Positions 4,712 to 6,761 of a DNA stretch of 12,274 nucleotides are shown one piece after another (the first letter of the stretch is position 1; every line of letters begins with the position of its first letter). The position numbers were made by a program, and so were the translations under genes. Below the pieces are notes generated by a model. The model was given only the letters and a program-made list of their open reading frames with translations, did not search any database and had not been told where the DNA came from. The DNA comes from Candidatus Aenigmatarchaeota archaeon (GTDB lineage Archaea > Aenigmatarchaeota > Aenigmatarchaeia > CG10238-14). The DNA lies in NCBI GenBank assembly GCA_026397455.1, contig JAPLUX010000071.1:1-12274 (forward strand). Direction: 5' to 3'.

Positions 4712-5602
4712 TTACAAAATCGTCCTTAAATTAACTCCACACTTCTCAAGGTTATCCATTTCTTTCCAACTTGCGTTGATACGTTCTTGTATGATTTTTA
4801 TCGTTTCCGGCTTCAAATGTTTGAACCTTCCCTGTAATTTAATGTATTCATCAACAGGCTTCAACTCAGGAGTCATCGTCCTCTTGAAAGCGCCATCATC
4901 AATCTCATACAACATCCACATCCCAGTCTGAACAGCCAGTTTAGCGACCTGTATCGTCATAGAAGAATCAAACGCCCAACCGATAGGACAAGGCGCGTGA
5001 ATGTGTAAGTACCTAGCTCCCTTCACCTGCATGGCTTTCTTTATTTTCTTCTGTAAATCTTGTGGATAACCAATGCTGGCAGTAGCAACATACTTAGATC
5101 CATGAGCAACAGCTATCATCGGTATATTCTTCTTCCATTGTTTCTTTCCTTGAGACTCTAAACCAGCTGGTGTAGTCGTTGCACTCGCACCGAAAGGTGT
5201 TGCACCAGACCTTTGTATACCAGTATTAGCATAAGCCTCGTTATCATAAGTGATAATCATGATATCATCATCCCTTTCTAAAGCACCTGAAACTGCACCA
5301 AAGCCTATGTCAACCATCCCTCCATCTCCACCATAGGCAATAACTTGTGTATGATTATTCCCTTGAGCTTCTAAAGCAGCTTTTACGCCAGTAGCCACAG
5401 AAGCAGAATTCTCGAACAATACATGAATCCAAGGAACCTTCCATGCTGTGGTCGGATACTGTGTCGATGTAACTTCCATACATCCTGTAGCCTCACAAAC
5501 TATCACATCCTTACCAGTCGCTTTCAACAACATTCTTGCAGCTAACACTGCACCACAACCTGCACATGTCCTAGTCCCAGGCGCCATCAAGTCTTCATCC
5601 AT
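4712..5602 (-). CDS. porB: Pyruvate:ferredoxin oxidoreductase beta subunit
   Basis: A 296-aa subunit that binds thiamine diphosphate and the proximal [4Fe-4S] cluster of POR, which oxidises pyruvate with CoA to acetyl-CoA and CO2 and reduces ferredoxin. Cluster ligands are C13 and C16 (RTCAGCG), C41 (ATGCMEV) and C205 (APCPIGW). The ThDP/Mg motif is GDGG at 92-95 with DNEAYANTG about 25 residues later. It begins inside porA (16-nt overlap), so it is probably translated by coupling. That makes its expression sensitive to whether porA is read to its end. Length and motifs are complete. A related 2-oxoacid substrate cannot be fully excluded. Confidence 0.95.
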   Translation of the reverse strand: MDEDLMAPGTRTCAGCGAVLAARMLLKATGKDVIVCEATGCMEVTSTQYPTTAWKVPWIHVLFENSASVATGVKAALEAQGNNHTQVIAYGGDGGMVDIGFGAVSGALERDDDIMIITYDNEAYANTGIQRSGATPFGASATTTPAGLESQGKKQWKKNIPMIAVAHGSKYVATASIGYPQDLQKKIKKAMQVKGARYLHIHAPCPIGWAFDSSMTIQVAKLAVQTGMWMLYEIDDGAFKRTMTPELKPVDEYIKLQGRFKHLKPETIKIIQERINASWKEMDNLEKCGVNLRTIL

Positions 5603-6761
5603 ACTACTTCACCATCTTTCATTTGTTTAGATTTATCTACGACATCGTTAATCTGAATAACTCTTATATCAACACCGCCTAAACCAGCAATCACACTTAT
5701 GAACTTGGACTTTTCAGTGAAAGGATACAAAGCATTACGAATCTCAGCAAACACAGGGCCAACACCTAACCCATAAGCAAATGCCTTCTCAAGGACGATG
5801 ATTGTTTTCTTTCCTTTTAAGGATTTTATCAATTCTTCTGTCGGAAATGGCCTGAAGCATTTTATTCTTACTAAACCTACGTCCTTTCTCTTGTCGACGA
5901 CTTCTTTTATCGTACCACAAACAGAGCCTAAAGCAACAATAACAGTGTCTTTATCGTTCTTGTATTCTTCTATGAAACCATCACCGTATTTTCTCTTGAA
6001 CTTATTAGCAAACTCTTCGTTGATTTCAGAAATAACATCCTTAGAATCCTGTATTGCTTCTTCCATATCTTTTTTCAAATCAAAATATGGTTCTGGGTAA
6101 GTGAACGGACCAAATGTCATCGGCCTTTCTGTATCGAGAACAGCATGATCTGGTTGATATTTAGGTAAGAATTCATCCACATCCTTTTGTTTGGGTATGT
6201 CAACTGGTTCAATAACGTGTGTTAGGATAAAACCATCCATACAAACCATCACTGGTAATAAGATTTTCTCAGCGATCTTGTAAGCCTGAATCAAAGTATC
6301 GACTGTCTCTTGAACGTTCTCGGTGTAGAGTTGTATCCATCCAGAATCCCTCTCTGCCATCGTGTCAGAATGGTCATTCCAGATGTTGATTGGAGCTGAT
6401 AATGCTCTATTAGCAACAATCATGACTACTGGTAACCTCATCCCTGAAGTAGCGAACAACACTTCATGCATCAACGCAAGACCTTGTGAACTGGTTGCTG
6501 TAAACACTCTAGAACCAGCAGCAACTGCACCGACCATACTAGACATCGCAGAAAATTCTGACTCTACTTCCAAGAATTTTGCTTTCAATTTTCCATCTGC
6601 TGCAAACTTAGCCAGATCCTCCACAATATGAGTTTCCGCGCATTATCCTAAAGATGAATAACGCTTTGCGGTGTTATTGGGTAGGCTGAAATAACATCTG
6701 GCTTACATAATACAACAGTATGAGCTACTGCTCGACTTCCTTCTAAAACTTCCATTACCAT
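5587..6761 (-). CDS. porA: Pyruvate:ferredoxin oxidoreductase alpha subunit, interrupted by a 32-nt BHB intron
   Basis: Alpha subunit of POR, carrying the pyruvate-contacting domain. It reads only as two exons. Exon 1 (6761-6666) encodes 32 residues from [14 protein letters not shown] to YPITPQ. Exon 2 (6633-5587) encodes 348 residues from [10 protein letters not shown] to the stop. Joined, they give 380 aa, normal for PorA. Without removal of 6665-6634 the frame ends at TAG after 37 residues, and the continuous downstream ORF (from GTG at 6624) lacks the essential YPITPQ region. Also visible are VESEFSAM (about 55-62), ANRALSAP (Arg near 108) and NIWNDHSD. The ATG at 6761 lies about 28 nt from a TATA box; ATG 6755 is an alternative. 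If the insert were not spliced, this would be a frameshifted pseudogene. Confidence 0.92.
6634..6665 (-). other. 32-nt bulge-helix-bulge intron in porA
   Basis: The minus-strand RNA folds as CCGC (6671-6668), bulge AAA (6667-6665), a 9-bp stem (6664-6656 with 6648-6640, two wobble pairs), a 7-nt loop, GCGG (6639-6636) pairing with CCGC, then bulge AAA (6635-6633). Cutting after the second A of each bulge removes 32 nt and joins CCGCAA to ACTCAT, restoring Pro-Gln-Thr-His. The product is the same wherever the two AAA bulges are cut equivalently. This is the architecture recognised by archaeal tRNA-splicing endonuclease EndA. The outer exon helix is relaxed: CAATA (6679-6675) pairs with TATTG (6628-6624), leaving extra unpaired bases. 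The intron carries an in-frame TAG at 6650-6648. Confidence 0.88.

Follow-up and report, generated by a model that had tools for sequence, protein, structure and literature searches.

A putative bulge-helix-bulge intron in porA of a Candidatus Aenigmatarchaeota genome, with inserts at the same junction in other small archaea

The porA locus

The window described here is the whole of a 12,274-nucleotide contig (G000:C22) from a Candidatus Aenigmatarchaeota draft assembly (G000; 942,536 bp in 191 contigs, 72% complete). It carries on its minus strand the gene porA, which runs from an ATG at 6761 to a stop at 5587, encodes the alpha subunit of pyruvate:ferredoxin oxidoreductase and has a TATA-like TTTATAT about 29 bases upstream of its start codon. 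The end of porA is overlapped by an intact, putatively porB-like open reading frame of 296 amino acids on the same strand (4712..5602).

The reading frame of porA is divided by an insert of 32 nt (6665..6634, minus strand; AGCGTTATTCATCTTTAGGATAATGCGCGGAA). Exon 1 (6666..6761), recognised by alignment with 14 intact PorA proteins, comprises codons 1 to 32 and ends in YPITPQ, the last codon being CAA for Gln32, while exon 2 (5587..6633) opens with an ACT codon for threonine, begins THIVED and remains open for 348 codons to the stop. The insert is not a multiple of three and its sixth codon is an in-frame TAG, at which the unspliced frame stops; its precise excision fuses the two parts into a single frame of 380 amino acids. 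The division at YPITPQ|THIVED and the frame-breaking insert with its TAG, both described in the initial annotation, are thus confirmed to the base. The joined protein matches the NCBIfam model PorA_Arch with an E-value of 2.4e-160 and 533.7 bits, slightly below the cut-off of 550. In 13 of the 14 intact relatives the residue immediately after P[IV]TPQ is threonine, and in one (L010) it is serine; P31, Q32 and T33 are invariant across an alignment of seven PorA sequences. The 72%-complete assembly holds a single porA, in these two pieces, and not the second intact copy that had been considered as evidence against an intron.

Structure of the insert

Together with its flanks the insert folds as CCGC-AAA-[9-bp stem, 7-base loop]-GCGG-AAA with a minimum free energy (MFE) of -14.8 kcal/mol (z -3.95; one of 200 shuffles as low), and every structural element proposed earlier, namely the 4-bp CCGC/GCGG helix, the AAA bulges and the 9-bp stem, was recovered. 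On the minus strand, the central helix begins in the exon with CCGC (6668..6671), made up of the proline codon CCG and the C of the glutamine codon CAA, and is followed by the 5' bulge AAA (6665..6667), the 5' strand of the inner stem, GCGTTATTC (6656..6664), the seven-base loop (6649..6655), the 3' strand of the stem, GGATAATGC (6640..6648), the intron-side strand of the central helix, GCGG (6636..6639), and the 3' bulge AAA (6633..6635). Two of the nine pairs of the inner stem are G-U. The three-base bulges lie on opposite strands, each exon border falling two bases into its bulge, and cuts of the form AA^A would be expected at 6666/6665 and 6634/6633 by the rule given for cbf5 introns in PMC2738675. 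The outer helix beside the 3' bulge amounts to 0 bp in G000 and to 0-2 bp in the 13 other inserts for which it was computed (see below); because the outer helix of the strict hBHBh' form is absent, we assign the G000 insert to the relaxed HBh' form, which a strict EndA might cut poorly.

A fold of this kind is rarely met by chance at the junction. Among 10 million random 32-mers placed there, a bulge-helix-bulge (BHB) motif of the same geometry (stem of at least 9 bp, helix with at least two GC pairs, slides of up to two bases allowed) arose 11 times at genome composition and 53 times at insert composition. When the BHB-like motifs in 176 kb of G000 (876 in total, 116 of them joining ORFs) were ordered by stem length and helix GC, the porA insert took first place among the 116. 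A scan for BHB introns in protein genes gave 31 ORF-joining motifs in 176 kb of G000 against 33 in a mirror-image control, and 275 against 284 in 400 kb of G104; stable short motifs numbered 6 against 7 and 59 against 54, respectively, with no excess, and no flood of such introns was seen in these two genomes by a scan that has little power. At up to three mismatches the G000 assembly contains the insert core only once, and none of 24 pattern matches in a viral collection is a relative. A stretch of 32 nt is too short for the catalytic RNA core of a group I or group II intron, and such an intron was rejected, the window having no match in Rfam at gathering scores.

Inserts at the same junction in other archaea

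The comparison with the porA genes of relatives, which the initial annotation had put forward as a check, was made with the joined PorA as query and revealed 18 further genes with an insert at the same phase-0 junction. The total is 19 genes with 16 distinct inserts of 13-36 nt, spread over three phylum-level sets of small archaea, groups that are presumably DPANN. Precise removal restores the PorA frame in the relatives as it does in G000, and all of the intron-bearing genomes are draft or metagenome assemblies. The suggestion that 32 nt is close to the minimal size does not quite hold, given inserts of 27-30 nt and one of 13 nt at the same site.

The class to which G000 belongs contributed 156 genomes, of which 67 matched at 1e-25 (a phylum search at 1e-40 returned the same 156), and four of these 67 have the insert (G000, G146, G104 and G091). 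From the phylum of G156, the genome of locus L135 and a Woesearchaeota MAG, 371 genomes out of a larger group were searched. A match at 1e-25 was obtained in 92, which for about a dozen was solely with long frames (~900-1280 aa) of another type; inserts were found in G156, G284, G223, G434, G517, G288, G491, G389, G323 and G456. A further set of 145 genomes related to G284, which overlaps the G156 set and of which 63 matched at 1e-60, adds G551 and G553. In the phylum of G157, a Nanohalarchaeota genome with locus L065, 25 of 34 genomes matched at 1e-60 and inserts occur in G603, G602 and G621. In that of G158, a Diapherotrites genome with locus L066, 10 of 19 genomes matched at the same threshold, and 14 loci show no insert at the junction. 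Among contigs of named genomes, the best 80 of at least 588 confirmed loci include one with an insert, L135, which is the same gene as in G156. The junction was read by tblastn in 150 + 30 + 56 + 9 loci, some of them duplicates, and was unreadable in some, such as G144:C13, G599 (contig edge) and G136 (fragments). The remaining matches were judged by match start and stop flags only, so stop-free inserts with a length divisible by three would be missed among them.

Covariation, stops and codon choice

Across the 19 genes the exon offers CCNC and the insert ends in GNGG plus two bases, the one exception being G621 (GCAG, with one C.A mismatch); the central helix is fully paired in 18 genes and in three of four positions in G621. 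The inner stem follows directly on the three-base bulge in 14 of 15 distinct sequences, the exception being G389, which folds with a 2-nt 5' bulge; the 13-nt insert of G456 folds without an inner stem. When the inserts were folded together with their flanks (all but G551 and G553), the MFE structure contained the central helix for 12 of 17 and lacked it for G284, G517, G491, G603 and G621.

The third base of the Pro31 codon and its partner in the insert vary together, as A-T in 15 genes, G-C in three and T-A in one. For 18 end-glued sequences (15 distinct, the 13-nt G456 left out), 95.6% of the cells are paired. Their covariation score of 0.705 was reached by none of 500 shuffles (0.162), and sliding the partner gave no more than 0.179. 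The number of pairs changed on both sides, one of five measures of covariation, was not above expectation (6 against 4.9 shuffled; 140 of 500).

An in-frame stop is present in all 19 inserts. For the seven introns of an earlier subset with lengths not divisible by three, which would be noticeable even without a stop, the joint chance of the stops by shuffling is 0.005; introns divisible by three are more open to detection bias. The Pro31 codon is CCA in 15 of the 19 intron genes, five of these 15 being near-copies (G284, G223, G434, G551 and G553), against 37 of 137 intron-free genes (the readable part of 140 rows; Fisher p 1.8e-5). Such a bias is compatible with either a preferred entry sequence or a constraint from the helix.

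Proposed splicing and its machinery

The 18 additional inserts at the same junction, their stops and the covariation between exon and intron make the intron reading much more likely, and on this comparative evidence we regard it as very probable that the 32-nt insert is an archaeal tRNA-type (BHB) intron in a protein gene. Within the unspliced porA transcript, pairing of the exon CCGC with the intron GCGG would give a relaxed HBh' motif its central helix; EndA would cleave each three-base bulge behind its second base, and RtcB would join Gln32 to Thr33. The spliced mRNA would then encode the 380-residue PorA and the unspliced one would stop at TAG. That the transcript is cut and ligated, and the spliced product translated, is what we infer. 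The initial annotation, which had proposed a BHB intron in the porA pre-mRNA, thus gains support from 19 genomes with compensatory changes; its reading of the sequence was correct, and that of the mechanism most likely so. The porA inserts taken together appear, from their sequences, to be a position-conserved, compensating and highly scattered family of short mRNA introns that would be removed by splicing.

Genes for both enzymes of the EndA/RtcB route that had been suggested are found in G000, which encodes one EndA (PF01974, a 186-aa frame; L038, G000:C47:5708-5986, minus strand) and one RtcB, the latter having been searched for in G000 only. EndA was found in six of ten genomes searched. 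The four without it are G091, which has the intron, and G157, G158 and G159, which are intron-free in the genes read; G091 (75% complete) was the only one without EndA among the five intron-bearing genomes in the search (G000, G104, G146, G156 and G091). The G000 enzyme keeps the catalytic tyrosine and histidine and has threonine at the position of the lysine, K156 of M. jannaschii EndA (1a79). This position is occupied by Thr, Ser or Ala in seven other EndAs and in G104 and G105 (lysine-less loci L038, L031-L037, L221 and L222; G000 family; G049, G104, G105), and the lysine is kept in the long (~400 aa) EndAs of G146 and G116 and in the EndA of G156. The short EndAs carry a lysine-rich stretch, KLKKGPK, before the catalytic histidine, a possible counterpart of the broad-specificity loops described in PMC12397907.

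ARAGORN predicts introns in seven tRNA genes of G000. Three predictions, at L060 1501-1617 and at L049 1501-1617 and 1895-1992, have long or oddly placed introns; one of these tRNAs is left untyped by ARAGORN, and several introns per tRNA are possible.

Alternative explanations

The alternative that fares best accepts the intron and adds a function to it, namely that the stop of the retained intron shuts off PorA until splicing and so regulates pyruvate oxidation. The stops found in 19 of 19 inserts, and the shuffling chance of 0.005 for the seven introns not divisible by three, are what such a control device would predict, but detection favours frame-breaking inserts and most relatives' genes manage without one (in the G000 class, the insert occurs in four of 67 matched genomes), and we consider this addition unlikely.

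A broken gene or an assembly error, with the insert a mutation or artefact of a single metagenome bin, is favoured by the state of the one draft assembly, 72% complete and in 191 contigs, and by the second break in the porA of G091. Against it stand 19 assemblies with 16 distinct inserts at the same base throughout, the 348 further codons that stay open downstream in G000, the intact porB-like frame that adjoins them and the lack of a second porA in the G000 assembly, so that we judge this explanation very improbable.

Translational bypassing, in which the RNA would be kept whole and the ribosome would hop over the hairpin, is known from T4 gene 60 and the mitochondrial byps, elements that combine a hairpin and an in-frame stop with matching take-off and landing codons. 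The hairpin and the stop are present in every insert, but the take-off codon CAA or CAG is unmatched, the last three insert bases being GAA, GAT, GAC or GAG in all 19 and never CAR, and bypassing gives no reason for the covariation between the exon wobble base and the intron; we give it hardly any credence. Scarcely more can be said for a palindromic mobile DNA with a 3-nt AAA target duplication that is retained in the RNA, since the AAA that flanks the insert on both sides in the window is replaced in many relatives by bulge triplets that are not repeats (AAT/ATA, AGT/ATA), G000 holds no second copy, and the inserts of far relatives are dissimilar, yet their ends pair with the exon CCNC and follow its wobble base.

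Distribution and history of the putative introns

A quick maximum-likelihood tree (LG+G4, SH-aLRT only) was built from 159 PorA rows, excluding the duplicates L316 and L261 and any row below 250 aa other than G091, which was kept at 213 aa. It requires 17 changes for 19 introns, 13 of them forced by starred branches, and a smaller tree of 105 rows requires 12 changes for 14 introns, nine of them forced; change counts on quick trees cannot separate gain from loss, and starred branches can err too. With labels shuffled on the large tree the mean is 18.2 changes, and 96 of 500 shuffles were as low as 17. A single origin would need 38 losses on the large tree and 30-31 on the smaller one. Sisters that differ in presence of the intron are, on the smaller tree, G104/G105 (same genus), G146/G145, G288/G238 and G156/G351 (starred), together with G389/G511 (85, not starred), and, on the large tree, G621/G622 (starred). 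The porA of G104 lies in a clade apart from the other intron genes on the smaller tree.

The intron-free gene of G549 is closer in DNA to the intron-bearing genes of G434, G551 and G284 than the intron-bearing G223 and G553 are, which points to a recent precise loss. Next to the junction it differs from G434 at two of 18 bases on either flank, while further down the count is three of 42 and further up none of 27, a pattern that, in a search for co-conversion, is no more than suggestive of a local change. No local cluster of differences was seen between G104 and G105, whose 140 differences in 648 bases are evenly spread. The PorA of the window is nearest to proteins of the G157 phylum (65% to G603), against 44-45% to its own family and at best 55% to its own class, which suggests that porA itself was probably transferred.

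Quite possibly, although we hold this tentatively, the porA junction is a hot spot at which BHB introns have been repeatedly gained and precisely lost in small (DPANN-type) archaea; part of the same reading is a mobile intron family with the preferred entry sequence ACN CCA CAR | ACN. Either way, with repeated gain or with an ancestral intron, cbf5 would greatly understate how dynamic the introns of archaeal mRNAs are.

Comparison with known BHB introns

The mechanism proposed for porA is that already known from cbf5. The cbf5 introns of Desulfurococcales and Sulfolobales, as described in PMC2738675, include examples of 33, 36 and 39 bp, mostly have an unconventional BHB, are expected to be cut between the second and third bulge base, lie at the codon of the catalytic aspartate and have undergone lineage-specific loss. 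The porA inserts share with them the short length, the position in a protein gene, the unconventional BHB and the expected cut, and differ in their place at Gln32|Thr33, in being found in other archaea and far more scattered, in the stop present in 19 of 19, and in that their splicing is deduced. The same paper treats introns in other protein genes as predicted and unconfirmed, and cites 12-bp putative introns in genes of the rudivirus SIRV1; by description these resemble the 13-nt insert of G456 in a coding gene, although the SIRV1 genes are viral.

BHBs more widely have a 4-bp helix and 3-nt bulges on opposite strands, and HBh' variants are known among them (PMC4090602 and PMC7714728). These features of tRNA and rRNA introns recur in porA, where coding sequence (Pro-Gln codons) supplies the exon strand of the helix and not, as in tRNA introns, the anticodon arm. 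According to a 2020 study (PMC7714728), cbf5 is the only archaeal mRNA known to have a BHB intron apart from the one described there, HVO_1309 of Haloferax, in which the intron lies in the 5' UTR and processing by EndA was confirmed in vitro. HVO_1309 and porA are alike in having a BHB in an mRNA, but the porA intron breaks a reading frame. Among the papers listed by full-text searches, none reports a porA intron in its title or the opening of its abstract; this agrees with the initial annotation, which knew of none, and does not prove absence.

If the intron reading is true, porA would hold a second, position-conserved intron family in archaeal protein genes, in an enzyme of central carbon metabolism, and the splicing of protein genes by the tRNA machinery would not be confined to Crenarchaeota and would extend to several groups of small archaea. 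Split genes of the porA type are likely to be annotated as frameshifted or truncated in metagenomes, and presence and absence in the pairs G104/G105, G621/G622 and G434/G549 would offer a natural system for intron gain and loss free of the spliceosome.

Other interruptions of porA genes

Several porA genes are interrupted elsewhere. The gene of G091 (L196, G091:C8, about locus 2652) has a second break, a frame change after residue 205, for which an assembly error, decay or another insertion are candidates. Stops flagged in L238 and L124 have no relation to the junction; that of L124 (Methanoregula OWC_0058) is an in-frame stop in an otherwise intact porA (YRVA*DNK). L197 (G116:C12) carries an intein-like in-frame insertion of about 526 aa at PorA residue 86, which starts with cysteine after TATASQGL and ends in VVSN before a cysteine. 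At a different site of PorA, L331 (G400:C15:7400-10200) has, following SAPINIW, a second insertion of about 320 aa that keeps the frame, ends in VHN before CDHSDS, contains LAGLIDADG-like motifs and is likewise an intein candidate.
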